Below, in pieces: positions 3,547 through 17,875 of a DNA stretch of 22,578 nucleotides. This DNA is from a virus. The stretch lies in IMG/VR virus record IMGVR_UViG_3300000318_000082, positions 1-22,578 of that record. One strand, written 5' to 3'. Below the pieces are notes generated by a model. That model had not been told where the DNA came from. It ran no database searches and worked only from the letters and a program-made list of their open reading frames with translations. The number at the start of each line of letters is the position of its first letter. Position 1 is the first letter of the stretch. The translations under genes and the position numbers were made by a program.

Positions 3547-3959
3547 ACTTTATATGCCTTAATTCTTTTGTAAGTATCACTAATATTTATCCATCCATTA
3601 TCTGATGGCGATATAATTCGGCCATCTAATCCAATTATGCCGAGCGAATATATATTATGCTGCAAAAGTACAATATCACCTCGTTGGGCTTGCGATATTG
3701 GTATCTCTACTAATCCATATTCTTTTGTGACAATTGCCAGTAAATCTTTAAGACTTCTTGCATCTTTCTTGATAAGTTTCACCGCCTCAATTTTTGACGA
3801 GTACTTTCCTCGAAATTTTTCAGCTATATCTATACCTGTCATGGAAAATACTGCGCCAGCGACAAACAGACAGCAATCATGCTTGCCATAGGCAAAGGGT
3901 CGATTCCTCGCAGCTATGAGGTATCGGCTTAGTCGTGTTTCCCAATCGTGGTATCGCAT
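3543..3959 (-). CDS. DUF6950 / NlpC-P60-like tail peptidase
   Basis: A 138-aa protein with the GKHDCCLFVAGAV motif (residues about 25-37), which carries the predicted catalytic cysteine of the DUF6950/NlpC-P60-like papain fold. GDIVLL near residue 93 matches the usual second core strand. No clear catalytic His is visible where GIIGLDGR occurs, so activity may be altered or the family may use another residue. It sits between the hub protein and the giant tip protein, the slot of the cell-wall peptidase in gene transfer agents and many siphophages, where it helps the tail cross the envelope. Its start overlaps the upstream stop (TAATG) and its stop overlaps the downstream start (ATGA), which indicates translational coupling. 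Confidence 0.8.
   Translation of the reverse strand: MRYHDWETRLSRYLIAARNRPFAYGKHDCCLFVAGAVFSMTGIDIAEKFRGKYSSKIEAVKLIKKDARSLKDLLAIVTKEYGLVEIPISQAQRGDIVLLQHNIYSLGIIGLDGRIISPSDNGWINISDTYKRIKAYKV
3584..3590 (-). promoter_or_regulatory. ATAAATA element before tip protein gene
   Basis: The element (minus strand GGATAAATATTAG) lies within the end of the peptidase gene, 37 bases upstream of the tip protein ATG. This is the farthest member of the set and the weakest. Confidence 0.2.
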
Positions 3960-4537
3960 TATAGATTATTCTTTGAATTTGGAGAACGTCCCCAATATAT
4001 AGTCACTTGTTGAATCGAGTTCACATACTCTAAACCACGGTCGCCGGGGTAATCTATTTGCTGATCTTCATTGGTATAACGCCTTTGAATAGAGTTATTC
4101 ATCATCAACAATTTGTTTTCACATGCAATGGAAATGGAACAAGTATCCTTTGAAACATCAATCGTTGGCTGGTCGGTTCTTCCAGAAAATGCGCATACAG
4201 GACTATCGATCAGACTCCCACTGTCATCAAACAATCCCATATAGATAATTACTGGCAAACCAATCTGGAAATCATTCAGCGTGCTAGAAAGTAGATTCTT
4301 ATTGATTCCAGACAGTGTGAGAGTCACACCACGAGCCTCAACATTTGATCCTTCTTCGATTCCAGATAAATTGCCAAATGCTCCAAGTCCAATCCATGTG
4401 TAACCATTCCATGTGATTGACTGATAACCAGTCCATACATATACAGGACCAGATGTAAAAGTTAACTTGCAGAAAAAGGCAGGTCTAATAATAGGTCGAG
4501 CTAAAGCTGTTGCAAAATCATTTGTACAGTCACGCAT
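3959..4537 (-). CDS. baseplate hub protein, DUF2163-like
   Basis: A 192-aa protein beginning MRDCTNDFATAL, preceded by AGAGAGG and separated by 3 bases from the upstream stop. It is beta-rich (VYVWTGYQSITWNGYTWIGLG) and ends with a conserved-looking DRGLEYVNSIQQVTIYWGR segment, which I recognise from DUF2163-type phage hub proteins (GTA gp13 type). In that family the protein forms the ring between the distal tail protein and the tip protein. Position between the distal tail gene and the peptidase agrees. Identification rests on recognition of sequence pattern plus gene order, not on a search. Confidence 0.75.
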   Translation of the reverse strand: MRDCTNDFATALARPIIRPAFFCKLTFTSGPVYVWTGYQSITWNGYTWIGLGAFGNLSGIEEGSNVEARGVTLTLSGINKNLLSSTLNDFQIGLPVIIYMGLFDDSGSLIDSPVCAFSGRTDQPTIDVSKDTCSISIACENKLLMMNNSIQRRYTNEDQQIDYPGDRGLEYVNSIQQVTIYWGRSPNSKNNL

Positions 4538-4540
4538 AAT

Positions 4541-5167
4541 TTAAATAGCCTCTCTAATTTGGAACATCATGCCATACCATTGTGTTTCTGTAATTGACCA
4601 CTGGCGCTTATTACTCGATAGTCTGAACAGACCTTTTGGATTGTTCAGAATAATGGAGTCGCCATCTGAAGGGGATTCTCTAAGCTGAGGCCATATATTG
4701 AAAGTCGCATCACCGTTTGCATCTGCGCTCACGGTATCCAAACATTTATAAAGTCTGTATCCAATTTGTAGCCAATCGCCCGGGAGCAGAACGTTCTCTG
4801 CACTGGCCGTCCATCCCTTTGTAGCAAGCTGGTAGCCTGTCTGGCTTGCTCCATTCACCACTGGTGTTCCTGTGCCTGATCCCATCGGGATACTGGCAAT
4901 AGGTGCGGGAAGTTGGAACATGTTGAGCTGCCCGCGCATCTGTAGCAGCCAAGCAATCCATACTTGGGCCTGTGCGTGTGTCATCGGTGGCATCGTAACG
5001 GTTGCCTCAAGCCAAGAAACACCCCAATCTTGTGCCTGTTGATAAGCTGAAAATTCCCCTGTCGATGTTGCCACCAAATCATTAGCCGTAAATTCTATAG
5101 ACCTCGGACCGGGACTTGATGGCATATCGTATATGTTGTAATCATTAAATGTTCCGATAATACTCAT
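4541..5167 (-). CDS. distal tail protein (Dit-like)
   Basis: A 208-aa protein immediately after the tape measure. The N-terminal half (PRSIEFTANDLVATSTGEFSAYQQAQ) resembles distal tail proteins that cap the tail tube. The second half has a PGDWLQIGYRLYKCL stretch followed by FNIWPQLRESP and NNPKGLFRLSS, a pattern common in phage tail proteins of this position, probably an inserted beta-barrel lobe. The start ATG at 5167 follows ATAGGC only, so the ribosome site is weak; the gene may depend on coupling to the tape measure or on the ATAAATA element upstream. The role is inferred from order and pattern. Confidence 0.75.
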   Translation of the reverse strand: MSIIGTFNDYNIYDMPSSPGPRSIEFTANDLVATSTGEFSAYQQAQDWGVSWLEATVTMPPMTHAQAQVWIAWLLQMRGQLNMFQLPAPIASIPMGSGTGTPVVNGASQTGYQLATKGWTASAENVLLPGDWLQIGYRLYKCLDTVSADANGDATFNIWPQLRESPSDGDSIILNNPKGLFRLSSNKRQWSITETQWYGMMFQIREAI

Positions 5168-5172
5168 GCCTA

Positions 5173-5179
5173 TATTTAT
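5173..5179 (-). promoter_or_regulatory. ATAAATA element before distal tail gene
   Basis: The minus strand reads GATAAATATAGGCATG. The element overlaps the tape-measure stop codon and ends 5 bases before the start of the distal tail gene. The same TAAATATAGG(C/T)ATG string occurs before the small terminase start at 16281. At this short distance it would give an almost leaderless transcript if it were a promoter, or it may act as an A/U-rich translation element. Confidence 0.3.
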
Positions 5180-7629
5180 CGCTGAACTGTTCTTGCATTT
5201 TGATCGCGGCCAGCTTGCAATGAAGTGGAGACAGCCGAATTATGGCTTGCCAATATAGCCGTTCTGACTCTTGACTCTACTAATGCAGGGTCAGTTCCGC
5301 GTGCATCAATATTGTAAGTATGGGTCGTATTTCCACCAATATTATTGAGTTGGTTGTTAGGTATAACACTGCCTGACATACCGGGCACTAACAGTTCCGG
5401 TCCACGCTCACCAACAATATAGGGAGTGTTTCCAGCCACTGGTCCACCTAATGCACGGAAGCCGCCAAACAAACTTCCAGACCCGAAGAGTTTACCGCCA
5501 AACATCCCACCTAATTTATCACTATCGTTCAATGCTCCAAACAATCCACCCAACAATGATGACGCGCCGCCCATAATGGATTTTGCCGTACCGCCGCCCG
5601 ATGATGATTTAGACAATAGGCTAGAGGTCGCACCGCCGATACCCGTCAGCATTGCGCCACTATCATTCTTGCCGTCTACAGTTCCGCTCAATGCTGACGG
5701 TAAATTTGTTGCCTCAACGAATAAAGGCATTGATTTAGACTCACCACGCTTTGACTGTACGCCAAATAATGCGCCCTCAGCTTTTTGCAGTCCAGTTTTC
5801 GCCAATGATCGACTACTTTGTGCAAGAGTGTTTCTCCAATTCCCTTTACCAGTTATTAATTGATTTACTATCGAATTATTGACACCATCTATTAACTGTT
5901 TTGCAGTCTCGGCAATCTTTTGCATGCTATCTTGGCCATTTTGAGAAATTGACGCAAAAACATCGGTTATTGTTCCCTTGACGGTATATGCTGCGTCTGC
6001 CATTTGATATTCGAGTTCTGCAAGTTTATTTGCTGCATCCAATGCACCAATCTGATTCTGAATTTCTACTATCTTGGCTTGTTCGGCTGGCGTATCAGTA
6101 AAAAAATTAATACGACTTTTTATAGAATTTAGTTCAGATTCAAGAGCCTTACGCTCGGCCATGTAACCAGCATTGCTATTTGACTGAATTCCACGCGCAT
6201 AATCTCTATTGGCAATTCTCCCTCTTGCAAGATCATTTTTAAGCAACGCAGATGATAATGCCAACTCTTGTTTTGTATTGGCAATTCTCTCTTGCGCTAT
6301 TGCCTTATCATAAACATCGGAATTTTCTTCAATTTTAAAACCTTGCTTTGGTTCTTGTCCCTCTAGCCCTGAGATAGTCTTTTGGATGGTGTTCATCTCT
6401 TTGATTTTTACTTGCAAAGCAGCATGGAACTTATTGGCAGATTCATTGATTTTTGCATCAATCTTTTCAATGCTATCTTTTGCCCATTGATGAGTTGCCA
6501 ATATATTTTCCCAATATTTCAAATCATACGATGCATCTAAAGTGTAGAGATTATGTTTTTCGGCAAGGCTATTTGTTAAAACCGTTATCTCTTTTTCTTC
6601 TGCTTCTTTTCTCTTGGAGGCTGCTGCTTTGGATTGTTCATCCTCAAGTTTTCTATCTTTATCGTGATCAAGTCTGCCGGTATTGTTTAAAATATCCTGT
6701 GTTAACTTTGTCGTGGTGGCATTGCTCCCAAACATATCGATAATGCTGGCCATTGATTCGCGGTAATTATTTCCGTTGACATGCACACCTGTACGCGTCA
6801 TATTGTTTTGGTCAACGTCACTATTAAATGATGCAAGAGAGTTTTTAGCAGCATTGGAATACCAATTTGATTTACCGATTATTGCTGCGCTCTCTTGGGA
6901 CCGTAATGCATCAACATCTTTTTGATTTGTTGCATGAGAAATCTTATCCTCGTACTCTTCTTTTATTTTACGAATATCCGCTTGATAATTATGCAGATAA
7001 TCTCTTGCTTCATTGTTATCAATGGTATTGCCCAAAGTCTGCATGATGTGACCGGATTGCATTGTCTGCAATAATGTAGACTCTTCGGTTATGTTTTTCT
7101 GTAATGTTTTTGATAGATTTTGTGATGATTCTATGGCCTCATCCAATGATAGTTTTAGACCGTTGAATGGCTTGTGCTCGATCATTGCAATCTGTTTTTC
7201 TAACTTGTCATTTGTAACAGATAATGTTGCATTTGATTCGTGCCAGCCGTCTGATAATTCTTCGGCCTTTTCTCTTGCCTTTTGTGCAGCCTCTTCCGCT
7301 TTTTTAAAATGCTCGACAATCTTTTCGCCAGTTTCATAGGCTATCTGCGCAAAGGCAACCACAGCGATAACGTTAAATGCGCTTGAAATGGCCGAGGATA
7401 CTCCCGGTAATTTCGCCAACACGCCCTGTAATGCACGCGGGATTTTCACGCCTATTTCTTCGCTGACCAAATGGATGCCATGTTTGGCTTCCGTCATTTC
7501 GGATGCCATAGTTCGGCGAAAACTCTTCGTTGCACTTTCCGAATCTTTTAGCGCTGCGCGAAACTTCGCTGTATCTGCTTGAAGTTGGACGTAAATTTCG
7601 GCGACTTTTGCGTTAGATGCTGCTGCCAT
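5176..7629 (-). CDS. tape measure protein
   Basis: An 817-aa protein, the longest complete gene here, located just after the chaperone pair. It sets tail length and is threaded through the tube. The N-terminus is alanine-rich, with a membrane-like segment near residues 80-100 (VIAVVAFAQIAYETG), then long charged helical and coiled-coil stretches (about 110-130 and 310-560). A Gly/Ser-rich part follows (about 650-720). The C-terminal ALGGPVAGNTPYIVGERGPELLVPG near 725-745 is split here as ALGGPV and GERGPELLVPG; this motif is typical of lambda-type tape measures. At about 0.15 nm per residue the tail would be near 120 nm, an estimate. The start ATG 7629 has AGAGG nine bases upstream. Confidence 0.93.
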   Translation of the reverse strand: MAAASNAKVAEIYVQLQADTAKFRAALKDSESATKSFRRTMASEMTEAKHGIHLVSEEIGVKIPRALQGVLAKLPGVSSAISSAFNVIAVVAFAQIAYETGEKIVEHFKKAEEAAQKAREKAEELSDGWHESNATLSVTNDKLEKQIAMIEHKPFNGLKLSLDEAIESSQNLSKTLQKNITEESTLLQTMQSGHIMQTLGNTIDNNEARDYLHNYQADIRKIKEEYEDKISHATNQKDVDALRSQESAAIIGKSNWYSNAAKNSLASFNSDVDQNNMTRTGVHVNGNNYRESMASIIDMFGSNATTTKLTQDILNNTGRLDHDKDRKLEDEQSKAAASKRKEAEEKEITVLTNSLAEKHNLYTLDASYDLKYWENILATHQWAKDSIEKIDAKINESANKFHAALQVKIKEMNTIQKTISGLEGQEPKQGFKIEENSDVYDKAIAQERIANTKQELALSSALLKNDLARGRIANRDYARGIQSNSNAGYMAERKALESELNSIKSRINFFTDTPAEQAKIVEIQNQIGALDAANKLAELEYQMADAAYTVKGTITDVFASISQNGQDSMQKIAETAKQLIDGVNNSIVNQLITGKGNWRNTLAQSSRSLAKTGLQKAEGALFGVQSKRGESKSMPLFVEATNLPSALSGTVDGKNDSGAMLTGIGGATSSLLSKSSSGGGTAKSIMGGASSLLGGLFGALNDSDKLGGMFGGKLFGSGSLFGGFRALGGPVAGNTPYIVGERGPELLVPGMSGSVIPNNQLNNIGGNTTHTYNIDARGTDPALVESRVRTAILASHNSAVSTSLQAGRDQNARTVQR

Positions 7630-7650
7630 TTAGATGTACCTCTATAGTTT

Positions 7651-7657
7651 TATTTAT
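7651..7657 (-). promoter_or_regulatory. ATAAATA element before tape measure
   Basis: The minus strand reads CAATAAATAAAACTATAGAGG: the element lies directly downstream of the 7665-7693 hairpin and 21 bases upstream of the tape-measure ATG. The segment up to GAGGTACA is nearly identical to the leader at 10786 except for a 2-bp insertion. A candidate late promoter restarting transcription after the hairpin. Confidence 0.4.
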
Positions 7658-7664
7658 TGACAAT

Positions 7665-7693
7665 AAGAGCGCGGATTAATTCTCCGCGCTCTT
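7665..7693 (-). terminator. hairpin, probable (weak) intrinsic terminator
   Basis: A perfect 11-bp stem (AAGAGCGCGGA / TCCGCGCTCTT) with a 7-base loop that contains the TAA stop of the chaperone extension. On the minus strand it is followed by ATTGTC, so the U tract is poor (only UU-A-UU). It could be a leaky terminator or an RNA-processing or stability element separating the chaperone and tape-measure messages. Confidence 0.55.
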
Positions 7694-8023
7694 GAATCCT
7701 GAAAACATTGCCAAAATATGATTTTTAGTTTCTGTTACAGAATATTGTTTCTGTTTCTCTTTTTTGCCAACTTGCGATGGCATAAAGTCTGATGGTGAAC
7801 ATGGTTTTTCAGGATGAGCCATTGAAAAGTTAACAATCGTACTTGCAATGATTCCGGCATATAGTTCCTGCCGTTCTATTGATGATTCCCATCGTTTAAT
7901 CAGTGCGTGAAACATCCTTGGCGTGAGTTTCCCAAATTGTTCATCAGATAATTGCAAATCGTACCGAGCAATGGACCAGAGATTAAGCCAATATTGATCG
8001 GCTGTTACTTCTGGTCCTTCGGA
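7676..8023 (-). CDS. tail assembly chaperone frameshift extension (gpT-like)
   Basis: This is the -1 frame continuation of the chaperone at 8005-8346. The region 7676-7957 (LQLSDEQFGKLTPRMFHALIKRWE...) could be called as a separate 93-aa ORF from TTG 7957, but that start has no ribosome binding site, and the same frame continues upstream with coding-like sequence (PEVTADQYWLNLWSIARYD) without any ATG. Shifting back one base at the TTT codon 8023-8025 gives a fusion of 108 plus 115 residues (223 aa). In lambda, gpGT made this way bridges tape measure and tail tube protein. The gene lies exactly between those two genes here. SLTPR-type motif (KLTPRMF) is typical of such chaperones. Confidence 0.8.
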   Translation of the reverse strand, partial: SEGPEVTADQYWLNLWSIARYDLQLSDEQFGKLTPRMFHALIKRWESSIERQELYAGIIASTIVNFSMAHPEKPCSPSDFMPSQVGKKEKQKQYSVTETKNHILAMFSGFKSAEN

Positions 8024-8028
8024 AAACT
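7973..8028 (-). promoter_or_regulatory. programmed -1 ribosomal frameshift signal
   Basis: In frame 0 the codons read AGT TTT CCG. The run T-TTT (8023-8026) lets the Phe tRNA re-pair after slipping back one base. Five bases later begins a perfect 8-bp stem, GGACCAGA (8010-8017) with TCTGGTCC (7973-7980), which encloses an inner 6-bp hairpin GCCGAT / ATTGGC (7997-8002 and 7987-7992, one G-U pair, loop 7993-7996). Slip site, spacer length and structure fit a lambda G/GT-type signal. The heptamer is not a classic XXXYYYZ, so the exact slip point is less certain than the event. Confidence 0.75.
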
Positions 8029-8346
8029 TTCTTCTTCCTCGTTTTCTATAACTGAATCAGACCATGCTTCGAGAACGGTATTCCAAACTTCGACCAATGT
8101 TTTCGATGTAACAAGTGGACGTACATCATCGATTGTTAAATCATGGTGGTTAGCATGGGCACAAGCAAAAAACATGTTTCGCACTTCACTAACTTTTGGA
8201 GTTGTTACCATACGTTGACTGATGCCGGTTACAAGTGGGACATTTAATAGGTCTTCCGCTTCAGCAATTGCATCAAAATCCCATGTTAGTTTATATGTTA
8301 TATCTTGTAATGTAATCTTACGTTCTGGTCTAACTTTGTTACTCAT
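8005..8346 (-). CDS. tail assembly chaperone (gpG-like)
   Basis: A 113-aa acidic, mostly helical protein located between the major tail protein and the tape measure. Its start ATG 8346 has AGGAG about 10 bases upstream (AGGAGAAAAAATTTATG). The text KLTWDFDAIAEAEDLLNVPLV near the N-terminus is the typical pattern of siphophage tail chaperones (GTA-TAC-like and lambda G-like). It ends in an acidic EEEESFPKDQK tail, where a -1 frameshift just before the stop yields the longer fusion. It is expected to coat the tape measure during tail assembly and not be in the virion. Function inferred from position, pattern and the frameshift. Confidence 0.82.
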   Translation of the reverse strand: MSNKVRPERKITLQDITYKLTWDFDAIAEAEDLLNVPLVTGISQRMVTTPKVSEVRNMFFACAHANHHDLTIDDVRPLVTSKTLVEVWNTVLEAWSDSVIENEEEESFPKDQK

Positions 8347-8377
8347 AAATTTTTTCTCCTGATTTTGTTAATTATTT

Positions 8378-8893
8378 TTATGCGCCAGCGGTAACGGTAA
8401 AGTCGCTGTTGACTTGTATTTCGGTTTCAAAACTCATTGCCTTACCGTCAGACGCAATACTGGTGGGAACGGGTTGAGAAAGAAGGAATCCAGAAAATGT
8501 AAATGTATCGCCGACATTGGCTTGTGATTGTTCATAATTTACAGGTAGAGCAATTTTAAAATCACAGGTTGCAGCGTTACCAAAAGCGTTTTGCAAGGCT
8601 TTCTGTCCAGCGTCTGAACCGCTCGTGTAAAGAGCCTCTATTTTTACGCTGGCAGGGGAAAGACTTGATAAATGCAATTCTTTACGAACGATATTGTTAC
8701 TTTTTGTGGTTGCTGATCCTGCCATGTATGGTGAGGAGAGATTGGTAACATCCTCAGTATCATATTTTGCTGCGGTAACGGCACAAGATTTAACCTCACC
8801 GATTGTGACATAAGTATTGCTGCCAGTTGGGTAGGCAACAGAAAAAACTGTACCAGCCGCATATAAAGCACTGGATGTATTGTAACTTGACAT
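8378..8893 (-). CDS. major tail tube protein
   Basis: A 171-aa beta-rich, Ser/Thr-rich protein (GEVKSCAVTAAKYDTEDVTN, then SGFLLSQPVP and a terminal TEIQVNSDFTVTAGA). This pattern, including the ISxVP-like loop and terminal strand, matches lambda gpV-type tube proteins of long non-contractile tails. No sheath gene lies nearby. It starts ATGTCAAGT, preceded by ACGAGG and an A-rich spacer, very like the leader of the major capsid gene, suggesting both are tuned for high expression. It lies downstream of the tail terminator gene and upstream of the chaperone pair, as in most siphophages. Confidence 0.88.
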   Translation of the reverse strand: MSSYNTSSALYAAGTVFSVAYPTGSNTYVTIGEVKSCAVTAAKYDTEDVTNLSSPYMAGSATTKSNNIVRKELHLSSLSPASVKIEALYTSGSDAGQKALQNAFGNAATCDFKIALPVNYEQSQANVGDTFTFSGFLLSQPVPTSIASDGKAMSFETEIQVNSDFTVTAGA

Positions 8894-8910
8894 ATTTTTT
8901 AACCTCGTAT

Positions 8911-9291
8911 CTAGATGTAGGTGATGGAGAAATGTAAGGATGATTTATACAAAATAATGTCACCCGAAACATTACCATCAACTTTATTTATTAATTCTGC
9001 AAATTGGATTCGAGTGCCGCCAGATAGTTCGCCATAATATCCGTTGAACATCGTTTCAATAGCGTTTTCTATGACAATCAAATTTTTATATGACTGGCTG
9101 AAAACATTCAGCACAAGACGAATAGTAGAGGCAGAAGAAACGCTGGAAATGGTTTTGTCAGTATTTTGCTGTGATGCAATCTGATACGTGATACATGGAA
9201 AATTGTCCAAATCGTCTGGCGCAACCACGGCATATATTTTAGGCACTGATGTATTGGTGTGCAGATATGTTATAAGTTCATCTATAATCAT
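8911..9291 (-). CDS. tail terminator / completion protein (DUF3168-like)
   Basis: A 126-aa protein starting MIIDELITYLHTN with PDDLDNFPCITYQ near residue 30 and ending with beta strands (GDIILYKSSLHFSITYI). This resembles the DUF3168 / lambda gpU-type proteins that end tail polymerisation and join the tail to the head. Its ATG overlaps the stop of the upstream HK97 gp10-like gene (ATGA), so translation is probably coupled, and 17 bases separate its stop from the major tail gene. Family assignment is by position and general pattern. Confidence 0.75.
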   Translation of the reverse strand: MIIDELITYLHTNTSVPKIYAVVAPDDLDNFPCITYQIASQQNTDKTISSVSSASTIRLVLNVFSQSYKNLIVIENAIETMFNGYYGELSGGTRIQFAELINKVDGNVSGDIILYKSSLHFSITYI

Positions 9292-9746
9292 TTTCCCTCG
9301 TTTAACTTTTCACGCAACTTTTCAATAAATGCTTGTAATGCTGGCTCCGCACCACTATCAAAACCAGCCTCCATAAAATGTTTGCCCGGTATATCTTTAA
9401 TCTGTTTACGCCAACGTTTTTTCCCATGCGTAGTAAGAGTCCATCCATTATTGATCCATCGCGCAACATGCCCTGCAATCTCAGTCGGGCCCACATGTAC
9501 AGATTGCTTGCTCGGATTAACATCGACCTGTATATCTTCGCGAAGGATACCGGGTGGCAGAGCATTAGAGTCTGGTGTGGGCATCTCTTGAGCCATTGGT
9601 GTAACTGTGCGAATAGCATCCTGCATCACTTCGCCTGATGCTTGTAATGCTGCTGTTAGATTCTCTTTCGCAACTTTTTCTGGCAATTGTGCTAATAAAT
9701 CATCTAACTCGTGTGTGTCTATTTCAAAGCTAAAATCGTCTGCCAT
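9288..9746 (-). CDS. HK97 gp10-like head-tail connector / tail completion protein
   Basis: A 152-aa protein with the hallmarks of the HK97 gp10 family (PF04883): an N-terminal helix (HELDDLLAQLPEKVAKENLTAALQ spans 12-35), a TPxDSNALPPGILREDI loop around 57-72, a VHVGPTEIAGHVARWINNG block near 84-100 and a terminal GKHFMEAGF...AL..F helix. The family helps join tail to capsid. It sits one base into the upstream gene (TAATG overlap) and overlaps the downstream start, as a tightly coupled connector operon. Confidence 0.88.
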   Translation of the reverse strand: MADDFSFEIDTHELDDLLAQLPEKVAKENLTAALQASGEVMQDAIRTVTPMAQEMPTPDSNALPPGILREDIQVDVNPSKQSVHVGPTEIAGHVARWINNGWTLTTHGKKRWRKQIKDIPGKHFMEAGFDSGAEPALQAFIEKLREKLNEGK

Positions 9747-10120
9747 TATTTTGAATCCTCATCTACCGATTCGCAGAAAATCTTTAACACACGATTTCTT
9801 TGCATCACATTGTCCAATGCGGCAATACGCCAAGTATTATTCGAGAATACAACTCTATAACCCGGCTCGATTGTTATCGAATTATTTGGATAACGAATCG
9901 TCAAAACATGCGTGGATTGACTCGATATGACATCGTTAACCGATTCGCGATAGGCTGCGCCAGTTGTGCTCTCGATTAGCGCCCGAGTAGTTAAAATATT
10001 GGTGTAGGTAACAGTTGTCTGGTCACCAAACCCATCTAACGTTGTCGCTGGTGATTGTATTGTTATCTTAGAGCGCAGTTGTGATGGATCAATATATAGT
10101 CCTGTGTTTACAGATGCCAT
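9746..10120 (-). CDS. head-tail joining / head closure protein (SPP1 gp16-like)
   Basis: A 124-aa beta-barrel-like protein starting at ATG 10120, 3 bases after the preceding stop. The arrangement PSQLRSKITIQSP...DGFGDQTTVTYTN followed by an Ala-Leu-Ile-Glu segment and a final TWRIAALDNVMQRNRVLKIFCE is the pattern of phage head-tail joining proteins (PF05521), which close the head after packaging. Position between the connector and the gp10-like protein is the expected one. Confidence 0.85.
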   Translation of the reverse strand: MASVNTGLYIDPSQLRSKITIQSPATTLDGFGDQTTVTYTNILTTRALIESTTGAAYRESVNDVISSQSTHVLTIRYPNNSITIEPGYRVVFSNNTWRIAALDNVMQRNRVLKIFCESVDEDSK

Positions 10121-10123
10121 AAT

Positions 10124-10786
10124 CTATAACTCTCCCAAATAGTTGCAATCAAAAACGTATGGATCAAGTAAACTTTCAACTCCAAACTGCAAAGATTTAG
10201 TTCCAAGTGGACTAGATGCTTCACGGTTGGCATACCAATTTGATGCAAGTAATAAGATAGCTTGCTCAATTGCTGCGGGTACGGTTGCAAAACATTTTGT
10301 TGTAAAGTCAATTTGCACACTACCCGGCATGTATGTGGTTGCAGTCGGCCATGAGCAATTGTATGCAGGGCAGACTATGGCAGGTTCGCTAGTCGTTTGG
10401 GCATTATATGTTGATGGATCAACAGTAAACTGCGTACCACCACAATCAATATAAATTATAGACGTAATGGCACTGGCAGGTATCGGAAGGATAAAAGATA
10501 ATCGACGCCAATATTTTGTAGACAAATAATATCGCTCACTTGCCTGTATAGTCCCACCCCAATAACCCAAGGGAAAACCATCATAATAAGCAGTTGCTGA
10601 ACGATTGGTCAATGATCGATGGCAATAATTTTCTACCCAATTTTGTGCAGCAAGAAGATATGACGACAATAACAAGTCATCATCTGTAAAATCGGAATCT
10701 ATGGTAAGCTGTAGTTTTAGCTGATCTAGAGAAACAATTAAATTTGTGCTGTCTACATCATTATATTGGTAGGATATTCGGGCCAT
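10124..10786 (-). CDS. head-tail connector (HK97 gp6-like)
   Basis: A 220-aa protein. The start chosen is ATG 10786 (MARISYQYND), with AGAGG seven bases upstream; an in-frame ATG at 10849 would add 21 residues that run through a terminator hairpin, so it is rejected. The N-terminal part (DQLKLQLTIDSDFTDDDLLL then YLLAAQNWVENYCHRSL, about 25-60) is the helical core of the phage gp6-like connector family (PF05135), the ring that sits on the portal. The C-terminal half is longer than in HK97 gp6, with an extra beta-rich region and a terminal helix AAIEQAILLLASNWYANREA near 180-200, typical of the longer YqbG-like form. Confidence 0.87.
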   Translation of the reverse strand: MARISYQYNDVDSTNLIVSLDQLKLQLTIDSDFTDDDLLLSSYLLAAQNWVENYCHRSLTNRSATAYYDGFPLGYWGGTIQASERYYLSTKYWRRLSFILPIPASAITSIIYIDCGGTQFTVDPSTYNAQTTSEPAIVCPAYNCSWPTATTYMPGSVQIDFTTKCFATVPAAIEQAILLLASNWYANREASSPLGTKSLQFGVESLLDPYVFDCNYLGEL

Positions 10787-10803
10787 TGGTGTACCTCTAG
10801 TTT

Positions 10804-10810
10804 TATTTAT
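10804..10810 (-). promoter_or_regulatory. ATAAATA element after capsid terminator
   Basis: The minus strand reads GCATAAATAAAACTAGAGG: the element begins 2 bases after the U tract of the capsid terminator and lies 17 bases before the connector ATG. A start of new transcription directly after a terminator is the best single argument that this element is a promoter. No matching -35 box is visible 17 bases upstream. Confidence 0.42.
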
Positions 10811-10812
10811 GC

Positions 10813-10842
10813 AATAAAAATCCGCGCCAGATTCGACGCGGA
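10813..10842 (-). terminator. intrinsic terminator after major capsid gene
   Basis: On the minus strand an 8-bp stem TCCGCGTC / GGCGCGGA (one G-U pair, 6-base loop) is followed by TTTTTATT. It lies 27 bases downstream of the capsid stop codon. Complete or partial termination here would raise capsid message relative to connector genes. Confidence 0.82.
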
Positions 10843-10869
10843 CAATCATCAGGAGAAAATTGTTATATG

Positions 10870-12051
10870 CTACTTGCCAACCAATCCAACGATTGCTGAT
10901 GGATTGACTGTGGCTCCACCGATACGGCCAAAAGCAACCACACCGTATGCATTTTGATCGGCGTAACGCTCTTGCAGGATAGTCAATGCATATGGTTGAC
11001 CGGCAGTATTAAGGACTCTGCGGAAAGTATATGCAGCGTTATGATCGCCAAAGGTAGCAAAAGTGGTGCCAGTGGCTTGTGAGCTATAGTCGTAGGCCAA
11101 ACGGACAGGGAAGCCAAGAATGATGCCAACAACTGCGGCATCATAGGTGCCGGTCTGTAATCCACCCATGAACGGAATGAATAATGGTCTGCCGTTACTA
11201 TCTACAAGACTTTCTACGGCTGCAAATGTAGACTGGTTAAACATATAGGATGCATTGAGCATGTATGCTGGATCAAGATTAGCTTTGAGATTAACCAAAT
11301 CCTTGTAGCTGACAGATGCATTAGAGGTGCTTGTAACGCTATTACCAACACTGGCGGTAATAGCTGATACTGCACTGCCATTGCCCTGTGCAATTACTTT
11401 ATTAGTCGAGCGCATATAGCGTTGGTCAACGGCATCTTGAGTCCATGCTACAAGATCAAAATTTACATCATTGACTAATTCCTTATCTAGTAAGATTGGT
11501 TGAATTTTATATTGATCAACGGAGATAGTAACGGATGAGATTGCAGGATCGGCGGTATTGCTGGTTGTGCTTTGTAAAACAAAACCGTTTGTACGATCAT
11601 CCAATACAGGTACGCGGACGGGTGCGCCGGAAATGGTGTCAAGATGGTTAACTTGATCATATAAATAACCGTATCCCTTTTTTACGGTTACAGGTTGTGA
11701 TACATCGGTTGGGAGAAAGATGCCACCATCGGCTGCAATAGTAATATCGCGGGTTTCTGAAGCCTGACCACGGCTCTTAATGTAATTGCGCAATTCTCGA
11801 TTAGCATTTTCGCGGACTTCATCCTTTGAGCGATTTTCACCAACTGCACCACGTTTAATTGGCTCTGCGGCAAATTCTTTCTCAATATTTTCAAGGTTGC
11901 GAATCTGAGTCTTGATAGCCTCAGCATCATTAATCATTGCTTCGGCTTTTGCACGGTCTTCTGTGGTTAAGGTTTTATCGGCGGTTAAAATTGAGCGGGC
12001 ATCACTGAGTAGTTTTGCTCTATTTTCTTGTAATTCATTGATACTTGACAT
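10870..12051 (-). CDS. major capsid protein, HK97 gp5 fold
   Basis: A 393-aa protein. Residues 1-60 are a charged coiled coil (INELQENRAKLLSDARSI, later RNLENIEKEF), the delta-domain scaffold of HK97-type capsids, with a likely protease cut near residues 95-103 before the conserved DGGIFLP (108-114). The rest matches the fold: VPVLDD, a KIQPILLDKELVNDV section, a polymerisation region with NASYMFNQSTFAAVESLVDS, and GFPVRLAYD with FGDHNAAYTFRR near the C-terminus. The gene is flanked by the prohead protease upstream and a terminator downstream. ACGAGG lies 12 bases before the ATG; the spacing is long but the leader is A/T-rich and similar to that of the tail tube gene. Confidence 0.95.
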   Translation of the reverse strand: MSSINELQENRAKLLSDARSILTADKTLTTEDRAKAEAMINDAEAIKTQIRNLENIEKEFAAEPIKRGAVGENRSKDEVRENANRELRNYIKSRGQASETRDITIAADGGIFLPTDVSQPVTVKKGYGYLYDQVNHLDTISGAPVRVPVLDDRTNGFVLQSTTSNTADPAISSVTISVDQYKIQPILLDKELVNDVNFDLVAWTQDAVDQRYMRSTNKVIAQGNGSAVSAITASVGNSVTSTSNASVSYKDLVNLKANLDPAYMLNASYMFNQSTFAAVESLVDSNGRPLFIPFMGGLQTGTYDAAVVGIILGFPVRLAYDYSSQATGTTFATFGDHNAAYTFRRVLNTAGQPYALTILQERYADQNAYGVVAFGRIGGATVNPSAIVGLVGK

Positions 12052-12070
12052 ATTTTATAAATTCCTCGTG

Positions 12071-12104
12071 AAACAATATTGTTTTTTAGGAGCGATTACC
12101 GCTC
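12071..12104 (-). promoter_or_regulatory. structured leader of the capsid gene
   Basis: Between protease and capsid genes lie a perfect 14-bp palindrome AAACAATATTGTTT (12071-12084) and a 5-bp hairpin GAGCG-attac-CGCTC (12090-12104). Neither is followed by a U tract on the minus strand, so they are not a typical terminator. They could form a processing site or a protein-binding operator that sets capsid expression. Confidence 0.35.
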
Positions 12105-12118
12105 ACAAATCTATTTAG

Positions 12119-12886
12119 TTAATCTTCATATGCGTCTAACAACTTGATCCAAAGACTTCTTTTATCGTTGCTATCAATTTCTAAATCGTATTGGTTAGCT
12201 AGACAGTTTTCATCGGTACAGTCAGGGTCGGAACAGTCGGCGCAATTATTGTCATGACATTCTGGGCAACCGCATTGACAGCCATTGTCGTTAGGTTCCG
12301 CATCATCTGTTGATGCATTTTCTATATCGTCGTCAGAATTATCATCACGTTTTGAAATTTTGGCGCGTAACTCTTTAGGGCATGATTTAATAAGTGATCT
12401 TGATACAACGCTTGAATCTGGATATGCGGGAAAAGAACAGGCAGAAATTTCAAGCAACGTTACATCTAACAATGTGCGCAGCAAAGTTCCATCTGGCATT
12501 TCCTGCCAATCACAATCATTGCAGACAAATCCAAAACTATTACCGGACAAATCTCCGCGCTGAATTGCTTTGTAAAGACTGTCGGCCTCTGCGGTATCTG
12601 GTAAGGTGCAAGAAAAATGTAAACCATCTGGCTGCTTATCTAGTGTGAGAGTTCCAGCGATAGTGCGGCCAAACAGTAAAGATGGCTTATGGTCACGTAA
12701 AAATAGCACATCGGCATTAGGCATTAACGCCGAGTCAAAAGCTGATGGAGAAATTGCCTCTACAAAACCGCCAAGGTCTTCAGAATTTACGTTGAAAACA
12801 ATGACACCTGTTATAACTTTTTCGCCGTTATCGTTTTGTTGTGCGCGAAATTCTGACTTGTTAAGTGATCTATATTCCTGCTTCAT
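12119..12886 (-). CDS. prohead protease, HK97 gp4 family (U35), with Cys-rich tail
   Basis: A 255-aa protease that cleaves the capsid delta domain and itself during maturation. Residues 1-165 fit the family: FRAQ and ITGVIVFNVNSEDLGG, then LRDHKPSLLFGRT with likely catalytic His66, GDLSGNSFGF with Ser114 or Ser117, and LLEISACSFPAYPDS with Glu146. After residue 180 comes an acidic linker (DDNSDDDIENASTDD) and a cluster of eight cysteines (203, 205, 207, 210, 215, 218, 223, 228) with CxCxCxxC and CxxC spacing, followed by a basic-ending helix KRSLWIKLLDAYED. The cysteine tail is not part of the family norm as I know it. The start ATG 12886 overlaps the portal stop (TAATG). Confidence 0.9.
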   Translation of the reverse strand: MKQEYRSLNKSEFRAQQNDNGEKVITGVIVFNVNSEDLGGFVEAISPSAFDSALMPNADVLFLRDHKPSLLFGRTIAGTLTLDKQPDGLHFSCTLPDTAEADSLYKAIQRGDLSGNSFGFVCNDCDWQEMPDGTLLRTLLDVTLLEISACSFPAYPDSSVVSRSLIKSCPKELRAKISKRDDNSDDDIENASTDDAEPNDNGCQCGCPECHDNNCADCSDPDCTDENCLANQYDLEIDSNDKRSLWIKLLDAYED

Positions 12887-14199
12887 TATCTTTTTGAGCC
12901 CTCACTATTTTTATTTATGTTTTGCTGATCCATATTCCCTGCATATGATTGGTCTAAAAGTTTTTCGGCGTTCATGTAATTTGCTGGCACTGATAACAAA
13001 TCGCACTCTGGTTTGTTAATTCGCTGCATCCCCATTGCGGTACGTACATCATTGATGCTTGCAACTCCCATTTGACGGGCAAGATTCCAATTTGTCCATT
13101 GGGTAGATGTATCGGCACGTAATAATTGGCTCACATCAAACTTTACAAAATATTTGTTAGCCTTGCGCCCAACGGTCGGCAAAAGTTTAACCATGATTTC
13201 GGCTTCAAGATTGGCCAATAATGGATGTAATGTATTCGTCAAAAACTCAAGATTTAATTGTGTGGCATTGGTTCCTGAAAGTTTTTCGTCAAGTCCAAGT
13301 TTATAAGGTGATAACTTATAGAGTCCGGCAATTTCTTGGATAGACATTTTGCGAGACTCTAAAAACTGCGCCTGATCCGGGGTGACCCCTATGGACTTGT
13401 AATCCCAATCGCCTGATAAAACTAAGGTCTTATGCTGATTGATACCGGCAACGCTTGCCTGTATATCCTCTTTTGCAGACTGGATTTTTTCGGGTTTGGT
13501 GTTAACTGATCCCGGCTTGAGCATTAAAACGCCTGATGGGGTTGCGCCATTACTAAAAAATCTTGAGCTATATTTTGTTTGAGCGGCTGCTAGTCCAAGC
13601 TGATTTCTTGCAACATCAATAGGACTAATACCAACCAATCCATCAAGACTAAACAGACGAAAATGCAAAACGTCACCCATTGGAATATAACGTTCCGAGC
13701 CATTATCAACACCATCAGATGTTTTAACCCATAGTTTGCCATCATCACGGCGCACCACAGTAGTTTTAAGCGGTGACAACGGCCAGATACCAACCACTTG
13801 CCCAACACCATTACGTTGTATTTGGCTATATGCATTGCCAGATAGCAGCAACGATGCAATCATACTCTCGATCCAGTTATAGGCAGACATTTCTGGATTA
13901 GGCGAAATAGCTAACAAATCATACAGATCATTGCCGACTGCTTTAACGGCACCTGACGATGTACGCTCATGCAACTCTAAGGGCAATGATGCGATGGACT
14001 CCGATATGCATCGGATACACGCATAGACCGTTGACACTTGTCGCATGGCATTATGTTGGCCAATCGCTTCACCTGATGGTGTAATGTTCATCCCATCGCC
14101 AAATAAACTTATAAATCCGCTCGACAAAGGTACGGCGGCATTTTCAAGTGATCGTTTTTCACCGCGAAATATATGTGTAATGTTATCTATAATGCTCAT
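12886..14199 (-). CDS. portal protein, HK97 gp3 family
   Basis: A 437-aa protein of usual length for the HK97-type portal (PF04860), which forms the dodecameric DNA entry ring at one capsid vertex. Recognisable blocks: VYACIRCISESIASLPLEL near 58-76, YDLLAISPNPEMSAYNWIESM near 92-112, GNAYSQIQRN near 120, a PLKTTVVRRDDG stretch near 148, VLHFRLFSLDGLVGISPIDVAR near 172-194, and the FSNGATPSGVL segment near 217. The C-terminal region (LANLEAEIMVKLLP, QWTNWNLARQMGVASINDVR) is the crown and barrel end. Start ATG 14199 has no good ribosome site; it follows the terminase stop by 17 bases. Confidence 0.95.
   Translation of the reverse strand: MSIIDNITHIFRGEKRSLENAAVPLSSGFISLFGDGMNITPSGEAIGQHNAMRQVSTVYACIRCISESIASLPLELHERTSSGAVKAVGNDLYDLLAISPNPEMSAYNWIESMIASLLLSGNAYSQIQRNGVGQVVGIWPLSPLKTTVVRRDDGKLWVKTSDGVDNGSERYIPMGDVLHFRLFSLDGLVGISPIDVARNQLGLAAAQTKYSSRFFSNGATPSGVLMLKPGSVNTKPEKIQSAKEDIQASVAGINQHKTLVLSGDWDYKSIGVTPDQAQFLESRKMSIQEIAGLYKLSPYKLGLDEKLSGTNATQLNLEFLTNTLHPLLANLEAEIMVKLLPTVGRKANKYFVKFDVSQLLRADTSTQWTNWNLARQMGVASINDVRTAMGMQRINKPECDLLSVPANYMNAEKLLDQSYAGNMDQQNINKNSEGSKR
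12912..12918 (-). promoter_or_regulatory. ATAAATA element before protease gene
   Basis: The element (minus strand ACATAAATAAAAATAG) lies inside the end of the portal gene, where it encodes part of NINKN, 25 bases upstream of the protease ATG. There is no terminator in front of it. Lower confidence than the copies that follow hairpins. Confidence 0.28.
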
Positions 14200-14204
14200 A
14201 CACT

Positions 14205-14211
14205 TATTTAT
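14205..14211 (-). promoter_or_regulatory. ATAAATA element before portal gene
   Basis: The minus strand reads TCATAAATAAGTGTATG: the element fills the 17-base gap between the large terminase stop and the portal start and ends 5 bases before the ATG. The gap holds no clear Shine-Dalgarno site. Confidence 0.28.
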
Positions 14212-14216
14212 GATTG

Positions 14217-15902
14217 TTAAATCGCGAAACAGAAAAACTCTTGCTCTTCTTCTGGTGGTATATATCGCATTTGTACGGTTAATGCCATAATTGCAGCAAT
14301 AATGCCATCAATCTTTTTTCGGTGACCTTTATCGGTTTGCGGTTTGATGTTGCCGTTATTATCGCTATATATAACTACATTTTCTGCCATCCATCGCGTT
14401 AATGATCCACTATTATGGGCCATTGTTTTAGCGAGTATTTGCGCATCAAACTCTTTGGATGGATTGCTTATATTTTGCATTTTTTGCGATACATCGATCA
14501 CAACAAAATCCTGTAGATCATTGGCAAAATCGGATAACCCCCATGGGTCTTGACCAATTGCAACGATGTTATACTGCTCAGATAATGCTCGTATATCGTC
14601 TAACAATCGTTGCTGATCGGTAACAACACCGTCTGTAACGATTAGCTCACCAGATTTTTGCCATTGCTTCCAGCGATTATCACCCAACTGCGTCAATTGA
14701 TCGACCTTATTTTTTGGTAAATAGTGTTTCCAAAAATATCTGTATGGTTCGCCCTCATCTTTGGGAGGTATCAAAATACAGATGGACGTAAGGTCAGCTT
14801 TTTGGGCATAATCGATGCCGAGAAAAATATCACGTCCATAAAAATCAGATAATTGCATATCTGCTTTTTTACAGGCATCCCATTTTACAAGGTCAAGCCA
14901 TGATGAGTTATTTTGTTGCCATAGACAACATCGCTTGATTAAAAAATTGGTTAGATCGCTGGTTGAGGCTTTAGCTGTTATAGATGCTGCCTCAAGGTCA
15001 GCCATAATAGACGGCATATATGGTAAGTTAGGATTGGCCTTGATCCAATTTTTAGAGTCAAGATAATCATCGTTTTTGTCTAGTGCAGCAATAAAGCAAA
15101 ACCATCCATCGTTATCCAATTGGCCGTTTAAAATCTTTTCGGCCATCTGATGTTTTTGATAACCAATGCCTGATAAATTGGTTCCGGCGGTGGTAATGGT
15201 CAAAATCAATGGTTGCTTACGTGCGCCAGTCGATGAGTCCAAAAGCTCCCATACATCGGCGGTAGGATGGGCATGTAACTCATCTACCAATCCACATGAT
15301 GTAGACAGTCCATCTAATGATTTGCTATCAGATGCAAGCGGGACAAATTTACTATTTGTGGATGGGCATGTGATTTGATCACGATATATGCGACACATTT
15401 TATACAGCAATGTAGACTTGCGTATCATGCGGCAAGCCTCGTCCCATACAATCTTTGCCTGATCGCGTTTAGTGGCTGCGCTGTATACTTCGGCTGCTTC
15501 CTCGCCGTCGAATAAAAGCATTATCAAACCTATTGCAGCCATCAAAGTTGACTTGCCATTTTTACGGGCAACCTCTATATATGCACGTCTATATCTGCGA
15601 GTATGGTTATCTTTTCTGAGCCAACCGAAAATAGATGCAATGATAAATTGTTGCCAAGGATTAAGTACAAACTCCTGCCCTGCCACCTCACCTTTGGTTA
15701 GGCGAAACAGTTTAAAAAGATTTATTGCGGCATTGGCTTTAGCGGTCGAGAAATAGTATGGGCAATCGTCTCGTGACGATTTTTTAAGGTCATCAATATG
15801 GCGCTGAACAGCAAGGCGCGTAAGATCACCAACAATGACGCGACCTTGTATTACATCGTCAATATACGATTGATAACTCTTATTGTGCGTTGCGGAAATC
15901 AT
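14217..15902 (-). CDS. terL: terminase large subunit
   Basis: A 561-aa packaging motor with the HK97-type (Terminase_1, PF03354) layout. The ATPase part has the adenine-binding region FVLNPWQQFIIASIFGW (78-94), Walker A VARKNGKST (111-119), and Walker B CGLVDELHAH (203-212). A coupling Thr-rich ITTAGTN follows at 236-242. The nuclease domain begins with DIFLGIDYAQKADL (358-371), with Asp364 as first metal ligand, a middle IVAIGQDPWG, and a final Asp near 534 in KKIDGIIAAIMAL. ATG 15902 lies 23 bases inside the small subunit gene, so the two are translationally linked. All key residues look intact. Confidence 0.96.
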   Translation of the reverse strand: MISATHNKSYQSYIDDVIQGRVIVGDLTRLAVQRHIDDLKKSSRDDCPYYFSTAKANAAINLFKLFRLTKGEVAGQEFVLNPWQQFIIASIFGWLRKDNHTRRYRRAYIEVARKNGKSTLMAAIGLIMLLFDGEEAAEVYSAATKRDQAKIVWDEACRMIRKSTLLYKMCRIYRDQITCPSTNSKFVPLASDSKSLDGLSTSCGLVDELHAHPTADVWELLDSSTGARKQPLILTITTAGTNLSGIGYQKHQMAEKILNGQLDNDGWFCFIAALDKNDDYLDSKNWIKANPNLPYMPSIMADLEAASITAKASTSDLTNFLIKRCCLWQQNNSSWLDLVKWDACKKADMQLSDFYGRDIFLGIDYAQKADLTSICILIPPKDEGEPYRYFWKHYLPKNKVDQLTQLGDNRWKQWQKSGELIVTDGVVTDQQRLLDDIRALSEQYNIVAIGQDPWGLSDFANDLQDFVVIDVSQKMQNISNPSKEFDAQILAKTMAHNSGSLTRWMAENVVIYSDNNGNIKPQTDKGHRKKIDGIIAAIMALTVQMRYIPPEEEQEFFCFAI

Positions 15903-16281
15903 CTACTATCTTTTGCAATATATCCATATCATTATCTTTTGCATCGTTAAGCGATCCTCTGGCAGATGGTGACATACCAAACTGTGCAAGGATATGGTCA
16001 AGATCACGCCCAGCCTCAGCCATTGCGTGTAGTGCTGGATTGCTCTTTACCGCCTGTCCAATTTCTAACAATGCTCCGTACTTGTCGCGTGCATCCTTTG
16101 CCAATAAATAGGTGTACATTGTGGCGCAGTATCGTCCAAGCAACTCTCCATCATGGCGAGTAAGATGGCCCGCATCTTCAATCTTGGGTATGATGTAATC
16201 CCAAATTCGTTTTTCGGCGGCGTTGAGCCAATATGGTATATCGGGACGCTCTACAATCTCATTTTGTGGTTTGGTGATCAT
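15880..16281 (-). CDS. terS: terminase small subunit, P27 family
   Basis: A 133-aa DNA-recognition subunit from ATG 16281 (MITKPQNEIVERPDIP). The frame continues upstream to ATG 16392, but the added 37 residues are Cys/Arg-rich and run over inverted repeats, so I reject them. The pattern PYWLNAAEKRIWDYIIPKIEDAGHL then DGELLGRYCATMYTYLLAKD and the NPALHAMAEAGRDLDHILAQFGMSPSARG end is characteristic of the P27 family (PF05119): the first part is the DNA-binding helices, the last the oligomerisation part. It is adjacent to and overlaps terL. Confidence 0.88.
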   Translation of the reverse strand: MITKPQNEIVERPDIPYWLNAAEKRIWDYIIPKIEDAGHLTRHDGELLGRYCATMYTYLLAKDARDKYGALLEIGQAVKSNPALHAMAEAGRDLDHILAQFGMSPSARGSLNDAKDNDMDILQKIVDDFRNAQ

Positions 16282-16315
16282 ACCTATATTTAGGGCAAAA
16301 AAACATAACATTCGA

Positions 16316-16386
16316 CGATATTGCAAATGAGAGCCGGTATATGGTCGTGTGGGGGTGGTCTTCTGGCAATATCGATAGGGCCACCC
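16316..16386. repeat. nested inverted repeats upstream of terS (cos/pac candidate)
   Basis: The 117-base gap between the secreted-protein gene and terS contains a perfect 9-bp inverted repeat CGATATTGC (16316-16324) / GCAATATCG (16366-16374) interlaced with GGGTGG (16353-16358) / CCACCC (16381-16386). There is no U tract on either strand, so it is not a standard terminator. Small terminase binding or cos sites are often located next to terS in HNH-carrying phages, hence the suggestion. Confidence 0.35.
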
Positions 16387-16398
16387 TTTCACGTCGCA

Positions 16399-17124
16399 TT
16401 ACTTTTTAATATGACGGTATGGGAATTGATATACAGTATCGCCAACTGGCAAAGATATAGTCATTGATTCCCAATGTTTATCACGTTCAAAGAGGACTGC
16501 GCCGCCAGAATAATTATTTGGCTGTATCGTATTTTCTCGTAGTTCTTCGTTCATGAGTTTATCAGAGTCATTATTAAACTGTGCGTTTCGCTCCTGTATC
16601 ATCGCGTTTGTACGGGCTTGTGCTGCATAGTCTGGCGTTGTGGTGGTAGAAGTTGAAACACCATTATAAGTACCATATGCACTCGTACCGTTTGAGCTAT
16701 AGGCGTTGACACTGCCAATGCTGTTTGTCGTAGTGGTAGAAGTTGTGGTTGCCAGTCCTGCTCCCATCGCAGCAAATGCATTAGACCATGCAAGACGGCG
16801 CTGTGATGATTTAACAACCTTTTGCATGCTTATGCGCTTTAATGTCTTTACTTTTGGATGATCTACATTAATGACAAAATCATTTGGCAATACATCAACG
16901 TTTTTAGATGTACTGTTGAACACATCGACTTCGGCGCGAAAATATTTTCCAGTATCGGACATGCTTAGAGTAATGGTTATACCATTGTTCTTTAAGATTT
17001 TGGTCTTCGCTCCATTCCGATATTGCTGCTCACAGTTTGTTTCGTCGCAGACTACAATATGCTGCTGTGCATGTACAAATATTGCTGACACACAAAACAG
17101 CCAAATGGCGATAGACTTTCGCAT
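16399..17124 (-). CDS. secreted accessory protein of unknown function (moron candidate)
   Basis: A 241-aa protein from ATG 17124, preceded by GGGGG-AACC. A longer frame to 17169 exists but would hide the signal peptide. Residues 1-19 (MRKSIAIWLFCVSAIFVHA) are a clear Sec signal peptide with a likely cut before QQH. Then a beta-rich domain (GITITLSMSDTGKYFRAEVDVFNSTSKNVDVLP is spread over about 48-80), a basic stretch KVVKSSQRRLAW, a Ser/Thr/Gly low-complexity part (126-164) and a C-terminal ERDKHWESMTISLPVGD with final strands. It resembles, from memory, hypothetical proteins of Acidobacteria with the same DTGKYFR and WxNAxxAMGA features. It is not a usual phage packaging protein, so a host-altering periplasmic role is possible. 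Confidence 0.75.
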   Translation of the reverse strand: MRKSIAIWLFCVSAIFVHAQQHIVVCDETNCEQQYRNGAKTKILKNNGITITLSMSDTGKYFRAEVDVFNSTSKNVDVLPNDFVINVDHPKVKTLKRISMQKVVKSSQRRLAWSNAFAAMGAGLATTTSTTTTNSIGSVNAYSSNGTSAYGTYNGVSTSTTTTPDYAAQARTNAMIQERNAQFNNDSDKLMNEELRENTIQPNNYSGGAVLFERDKHWESMTISLPVGDTVYQFPYRHIKK

Positions 17125-17207
17125 GGTTCCCCCATAAATTATTTGCTGACGTTGGCAACAATATAACACACTGATGGGAGCCTCTAGGTAATCATCGATA
17201 GTAACAG

Positions 17208-17543
17208 TTACTCATTATTTGCTGTGCGTACACTATGACAACGATGACACAAGCATAATAGATTATCGTCGTCGTACTTTAGCTCCGGGTGCAACGCAAG
17301 TTTTTGGATATGATGTATTTCTGTTGCCACGGTTACAATGCCCTTTGCAGCACAATCGGCACATAATGGATGCTCTCTCAAATATGATTCTCGAAACTGT
17401 CTCCATCGATAATCATAACCTCTTGCGTTACTATTTCCACGATTATCATCAGCAATCTTAGAGGGCGACTGTTGCAAATGTTTACTACAATAGCCTCCCT
17501 CGGACAGTAGTTTGCTACAGGTTGGGTAATTACAAAACTGCAT
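17208..17543 (-). CDS. HNH endonuclease
   Basis: A 111-aa nuclease. An N-terminal zinc-finger-like CNYPTC (4-9) and YCSKH (18-22) pair precedes the HNH core: HPLCADCAAKG (59-68), TEIHHIQKL (75-82) with the His pair 77/78, DDDNLLCLCHRCHS (91-104) with Asn94 and His103, and structural Cys61/64/99/102. Such proteins encoded beside the terminase genes assist DNA packaging and cohesive-end cleavage in HK97-like phages. The start overlaps the upstream stop (TAATG). An inserted accessory gene separates it from terS here. It is unlikely to be a homing endonuclease given its place and lack of intron. Confidence 0.92.
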   Translation of the reverse strand: MQFCNYPTCSKLLSEGGYCSKHLQQSPSKIADDNRGNSNARGYDYRWRQFRESYLREHPLCADCAAKGIVTVATEIHHIQKLALHPELKYDDDNLLCLCHRCHSVRTANNE

Positions 17544-17725
17544 TACACTTCTCTATGAGGCTTCGGACCGGGCTTGAATTCTCCACGCAAATATTCCGGG
17601 TATTTTAGACTAATCTCCCGATAGTATTCCCCAACTTTCTGCGAGCTTTCAACGCGCTTTTTACGCTCTGTCTCGGGACGTAACCCGTTATCTGTATATG
17701 GTAGATCAATATATTTTTTTGACAT
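17543..17725 (-). CDS. small protein of unknown function, first gene of late operon
   Basis: A 60-aa basic protein (MSKKYIDLPYTDNGLRPE...KYPEYLRGEFKPGPKPHREV). I do not recognise it. It is supported by a strong AGGAG 9 bases before ATG 17725, by 1-base overlap with the HNH gene (TAATG) and by being the first gene after a terminator. The middle (TERKKRVESSQKVGEYYREI) is probably helical; the end is Pro/Lys-rich. Its position before the HNH gene suggests a packaging-related or regulatory role, but nothing in the sequence proves that. Confidence 0.72.
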   Translation of the reverse strand: MSKKYIDLPYTDNGLRPETERKKRVESSQKVGEYYREISLKYPEYLRGEFKPGPKPHREV

Positions 17726-17753
17726 TGTTGTTTTCTCCTGATGTATCTATATC

Positions 17754-17761
17754 TATTTATA
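17754..17761 (-). promoter_or_regulatory. TATAAATA element, candidate late promoter
   Basis: The minus strand carries a full TATAAATA, identical to the T4 late promoter core, 28 bases upstream of the first late gene and downstream of the 17799-17833 terminator. A second A/T-rich GATATAGATA follows before the AGGAG. No -35-like TTGACA is seen at the proper distance. Likely start of the late transcript. Confidence 0.5.
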
Positions 17762-17798: not shown

Positions 17799-17833
17799 AA
17801 AAAATCCCCGGCCAAAGGAGATAATGGCCGGGG
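17799..17833 (-). terminator. strong intrinsic terminator of accessory cassette
   Basis: A perfect GC-rich 9-bp stem CCCCGGCCA / TGGCCGGGG with a 10-base loop, followed on the minus strand by ATTTTTTG. It lies 43 bases beyond the stop of the 94-aa gene and separates the accessory genes from the late operon. Confidence 0.92.
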
Positions 17834-17875
17834 AACATAGTAGGATATTAATGGTATTGACTGACACCATCATTG

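Follow-up and report, generated by a model that had tools for sequence, protein, structure and literature searches.

Recurrent ATAAATA elements ahead of the structural genes of a lambda-like siphovirus fragment: probable late promoters of T4-like form

Introduction

What drives transcription of the structural genes in this phage fragment, and which factor reads the short AT-rich element that recurs ahead of them? The window analysed here, the whole of virus record IMGVR_UViG_3300000318_000082 at its full length of 22,578 bases, appears to be part of the genome of an unclassified tailed phage. An earlier note on this DNA had drawn attention to the word ATAAATA on the minus strand and to its resemblance to T4-type late promoters. 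Those promoters consist of an 8-bp TATA box approximately one helical turn upstream of the transcription start, and their -35 region is not conserved (PMC2988020). Cyanophage S-PM2 uses NATAAATA upstream of its late genes (PMC2984593), and in phages phiEco32 and 7-11 a short motif, tAATGTAtA, stands ahead of the structural genes and is read by a phage-coded sigma factor (PMC4331800). Here we examine the arrangement of the element, the sequence that surrounds it, and the candidates for the factor that may recognise it.

Results

Protein family scans place a siphovirus structural block of lambda/HK97-like order on the minus strand, running from an HNH endonuclease through small and large terminase, portal, head protease, major capsid protein and connectors to the major tail protein, tail chaperones, tape measure, distal tail protein, a tail protein, an NlpC/P60-like protein and a J-like tail protein; the plus strand opens with primase-like and VapE-like helicase genes. 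The structural genes belong to siphovirus/HK97-type PHROG families, and the nearest terminases are those of phages such as KS9, Pm34 and K396. Queries with the terminase, portal, capsid, J-like tail and VapE proteins, run on collections of phages, genomes and viral contigs, returned no relative closer than approximately 40–44% identity. Several other features of the fragment merit mention in their own right. The HNH and small terminase genes flank a reading frame of 256 residues (16399-17169) that matches no family, and the T-like tail-chaperone frame is open back to 8056 (8056-7957), overlapping the end of the G-like gene in a manner that fits the expected programmed frameshift. A DUF2971 protein with relatives in a few phages, e.g. 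SSU5, is encoded at 18247-19137, within the leftward genes that precede the putative late promoters. Where the leftward and rightward gene groups diverge, nine TTCATACA/TGTATGAA copies at 19364-19650, some of them arranged as 18-nt inverted pairs, form an operator or origin iteron array.

The eight minus-strand coordinates given for ATAAATA in the earlier note are all exact, and seven of the copies do lie near a late-gene start, with 5-37 nt between the end of the element and the start codon. The proposed first late promoter is the copy at 17754..17760 (-), which stands behind a terminator, 28 nt from the ATG at 17725, with a predicted transcript start at 17748; together with its preceding T it reads TATAAATA and so carries the full T4 late promoter core, as had been pointed out, and the base before the element in the other seven copies is C (three), A (two) or G (two). 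The copy of the portal gene (14205..14211, minus strand) is followed after a gap of 5 nt by the gene's start at 14199, which is also the predicted transcript start, and that of the head maturation protease gene (12912..12918, minus strand) lies within the 3' end of the portal gene, 25 nt from 12886 (predicted start 12906). Ahead of the head-tail adaptor gene, the copy at 10804..10810 (-) has a predicted start at 10798 and stands 17 nt from the ATG at 10786; as this is the true ATG, the start at 10849 (ORF 10124-10849) being a mechanical over-call by 21 codons, the element lies upstream of the gene and not within it, and the over-called frame passes through both a terminator and the element. 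The tape-measure gene is preceded at 21 nt (start 7629) by the copy at 7651..7657 (-), with a predicted start at 7645, and the distal tail protein gene at 5 nt by the copy at 5173..5179 (-), which overlaps the tape-measure stop codon and for which the gene start and the predicted transcript start are both 5167. Last, the copy of the J-like tail gene (3584..3590, minus strand) sits within the preceding NlpC/P60-like gene, 37 nt from the ATG at 3546, with a predicted start at 3578. Only the copy at 8985..8991 (-), within the tail-terminator gene, is removed from a gene start, again in agreement with the earlier note; from there it is 91 nt to the start of the major tail protein gene at 8893, and the copy, which keeps the pyrimidine-purine step described below, may be a promoter whose transcript (predicted start 8979) has a long leader. 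Some copies overlap or sit within coding sequence, and the genes that they precede are late (structural) ones, as is the case for T4-type late promoters. The exact word is absent within 60 nt of the major capsid gene start, and no copies occur among the leftward genes at 17876-19368.

Taken over both strands of the whole window the word is ordinary in number (11 copies against 9.1 ± 3.2 by shuffling). The sense strand of the late region carries eight copies and the antisense strand two; Markov models of order 1-4 predict 3.0-3.6 for the former, near the approximately four that had been estimated for the late region by the earlier note. Its contention that the clustering is unlikely to be fortuitous is upheld, as the 50-nt zones at starts, which make up 5% of the sequence, take in seven of the eight copies (binomial 8e-9). 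Among all 7-mers, ATAAATA is the most frequent in the 50-nt zones ahead of leftward gene starts (7 of 23 zones). Under a null model preserving zone composition, any 7-mer at all reached seven or more in 8 of 1500 runs (0.5%), ATAAATA itself never exceeded five, and its mean was about 1 or less. A similar start-zone test with automatic gene calls ranked the window first of 171 loaded sequences; the second (L104, an AT-rich Firmicutes locus with four copies, p 0.005) represents a result expected about once in that many tests, and its copies precede strong Shine-Dalgarno sites. Variants of ATAAATA with one mismatch have neither comparable enrichment nor the pyrimidine-purine step, from which it follows that the core is strict. 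The sample behind all of these promoter statistics is seven to eight copies.

Behind every one of the eight elements a pyrimidine-purine (YR) step occupies positions +5/+6, with T at +5 in seven and A at +6 in six, against a background frequency of 0.26 in the window and 0.29 behind 338 ATAAATA copies in other loci. The corresponding chance is approximately 2e-5 to 5e-5 before correction for the 19 offsets inspected, and at the other offsets the step reaches at most 5 of 8; it is also present in two of the three plus-strand copies. As this is where a -10 element should set the start of transcription, the step supports a promoter reading. A pyrimidine 10 nt upstream of the element, likewise present in all eight copies, fails correction for approximately 70 columns and was dropped. 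The copies lack any conserved -35 sequence or upstream block when aligned, in keeping with the earlier statement that no -35 box is apparent. Relative to the predicted starts the (T/N)ATAAATA core lies at about -13 to -6 without a -35, as in T4-type late promoters. In T4 itself, used as a control, 13 TATAAATA sites lie within 120 nt of gene starts, mostly 14-28 nt before the start codon, and a YR step is found at +4/+5 or +5/+6 in 12 of the 13; our expectation that it would be equally fixed there was not borne out, as it is split between the two offsets.

At two copies, those of the portal (14205) and distal tail (5173) genes, the +6 purine falls on the first base of the start codon ATG, and no Shine-Dalgarno sequence is present at the usual distance from either start. 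If the predicted starts are right, these two mRNAs would be leaderless; translational coupling to the gene upstream could still yield the proteins.

When hairpins with a T-rich stretch behind them were sought, three strong ones emerged in the intergenic sequence of the late strand, and each stands just ahead of an element. The intrinsic terminator at 17805..17834 (-), with a stem of -21 kcal/mol and a T6 run behind it (z -5.1), marks the end of the leftward genes to which that of the DUF2971 protein belongs and lies 44 nt upstream of the 17754 element. A second intrinsic terminator (10821..10842, minus strand) follows the major capsid gene and ends 10 nt ahead of the 10804 element, and a terminator-like hairpin at 7666..7692 (-), of approximately -19 to -22 kcal/mol (z -5.7), follows the tail-chaperone genes, 8 nt upstream of the 7651 element; the T-tract of this last one is weak, and it may serve the opposite strand as well. 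Such an arrangement suggests transcription units that end and restart, not one long read-through transcript.

Enrichment of the motif in related phages, to which the earlier note had looked for confirmation, was not found: no relative tested, none of them close, shares it. The contigs of the nearest terminases (at most 40% identical) show no ATAAATA enrichment, and comparison over the 171 loaded sequences gave no shared motif. A scan of viral contigs for ATAAATAAAACTA..GAGGTA returned four matches that look like chance, and in a paper on SPbeta that contains ATAAATA the word sits in an attachment site, not a promoter. As a separate observation, an unrelated viral contig (L004) carries four GTATAAATA/GCATAAATA copies in a non-coding stretch (8066-8670); read whole, it shows no GTATAAATA enrichment at gene starts.

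Discussion

We consider the ATAAATA set to be real and probably to consist of functional late promoters. Our reading, to which we give a probability of roughly 70%, is that the copies are -10-only late promoters of the form NATAAATA-N4-YR, without a -35 and like those of T4 and the cyanophages, and that they are probably read by a phage sigma factor. ATAAATA would then serve as a -10-like core, with transcription starting at the purine 6 nt behind it. Late transcription would begin behind the 17834-17805 terminator at the end of the upstream leftward gene group, and would restart within the structural region at additional promoters, of which two stand directly behind the terminators of the capsid and tail-chaperone genes. 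The reader of the element would most likely not be the main sigma of the host but another specificity factor, probably a phage-made sigma that works with the host RNA polymerase in the manner of T4 gp55 and is encoded in the missing part of the genome outside the 22.6-kb fragment. A late-promoter role has good support from the position and spacing of the strict 7-mer, the YR step, the adjacent hairpins and the lack of a conserved -35, and from these we infer promoter activity and timing. To this extent the T4-like late promoters of the earlier note stand, and the resemblance to T4 is real; a gp55-type or phage sigma reader is not supported by the window, where no such gene was recognised. Weighing against our reading are the small number of copies, the placing of some of them over or within coding sequence, the failure of the tested relatives to share the motif, the YR step at two plus-strand copies, the major capsid gene without an exact copy nearby, and the negative result for sigma and polymerase genes in the window.

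On present evidence the element appears to work like a T4 late promoter. The promoters of T4 (TATAAATA, dependent on gp55, gp33 and gp45) likewise have a near-invariant AT core without a -35, placed 5-6 nt before a purine start and mostly 14-28 nt before late-gene starts, with inverted repeats just upstream of some copies. In contrast to T4, the present phage has structural genes of siphovirus/HK97 type and not of T4 type, the first base of its core is free, gp55, gp33 and gp45 were not found in the fragment, and two of its copies predict leaderless mRNA. The degenerate first base is shared with the late promoters of T4-like cyanophages (NATAAATA, S-PM2), which also stand upstream of late genes; those phages, however, are myoviruses sharing T4 genes including g55. 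The sigma promoters of phiEco32 and 7-11 are comparable as short motifs ahead of structural genes in non-T4 phages, but their core differs, and the phages that carry them are of another type and have a known sigma gene. With lambda the fragment has in common the order terminase, portal, protease, capsid, connectors and tail, whereas late transcription in lambda (Q antitermination) proceeds from one late promoter with read-through, and here terminators are followed by repeated promoter-like elements. The best analogy is the T4/cyanophage late promoter or, in mechanism, the phiEco32 sigma promoters.

Temperate-type siphoviruses usually use the host polymerase, and it is reasonable to ask whether a host alternative sigma, or host polymerase with its main sigma and a phage activator, uses the elements instead. 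We regard this as unlikely, given that a conserved upstream activator site and a -35 are both absent and that the core makes a poor -10 hexamer. ATAAATA fits the sigma-70 -10 consensus poorly, sigma-70-like sites in total fall below the shuffled mean, and among the listed pairs of TTGACA/TATAAT-like hexamers 16-18 nt apart none ends at an element. Furthermore, we know of no sigma factor that prefers ATAAATA.

Acquisition by a siphovirus of a true T4 gp55 homologue, reading the elements with sliding-clamp coupling, would account for a core sequence and spacing that match T4 and cyanophage late promoters. The earlier note had reported no gp55/gp33-like gene in the window, and a T4 gp55 family search likewise recognised no such protein there, a weak negative because the control genomes of that search were also empty; the same search gave none in 40 related or chance-matched viral records. 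In the protein family scans the gp33 and gp45 families were not seen in the fragment, which is part of an incomplete genome. As much of the genome is probably missing, the absence of gp55 from the fragment says little. The gp55 relatives sampled across matches in 50,697 phage records sit in genomes of approximately 155-490 kb, mostly T4-like, the exception being two short T4 gene entries. A true homologue is in our view an improbable reader.

We hold a phage-encoded RNA polymerase, whether single- or multi-subunit, to be similarly improbable. Short AT-rich elements close to the start, and leaderless mRNAs, are compatible with such enzymes; against this, single-subunit polymerases usually need longer conserved promoters that include the start, where here there are 7 bases and a YR step, and protein scans of the 22.6-kb fragment recognised no polymerase gene, nor any sigma gene.

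That chance and composition produced the set, with AT-rich junctions, TAA stops and A-rich leaders generating ATAAATA and the most visible word then being picked, accords with the ordinary total over both strands and with the 0.5% of null runs in which some 7-mer does as well, and yet seems very improbable in view of the low averages of the zone-composition nulls, the first rank of the window among the sequences compared, and a YR step and terminator adjacency that are independent of the choice of word. An archaeal TATA box is rejected because two copies end 5 nt before the ATG, too near to it for transcription to start 25 nt downstream, and an RNA element is rejected likewise, there being no Rfam matches.

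In our preferred reading of the elements as -10-only late promoters, the predicted starts, the two leaderless ones included, are exact enough for a test in one experiment, and the interest of the set hinges on which factor reads it. Within the open literature searched, subscription journals lying mostly outside it, such promoters are without precedent in phages of this kind. Among the phage records sampled, only large phages, most of them related to T4, have late transcription of the T4 type. We offer tentatively, as something short of an even chance, the fuller proposal that a small lambda-like siphovirus transcribes its structural genes from many strict -10-only promoters by means of a sigma or polymerase of its own, either borrowed from T4-type phages or arrived at by convergence with them, and that leaderless mRNAs give rise to its portal and distal tail proteins. 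If a small siphovirus does use the T4 promoter form, this mode of late control would have moved between phage groups or arisen twice.
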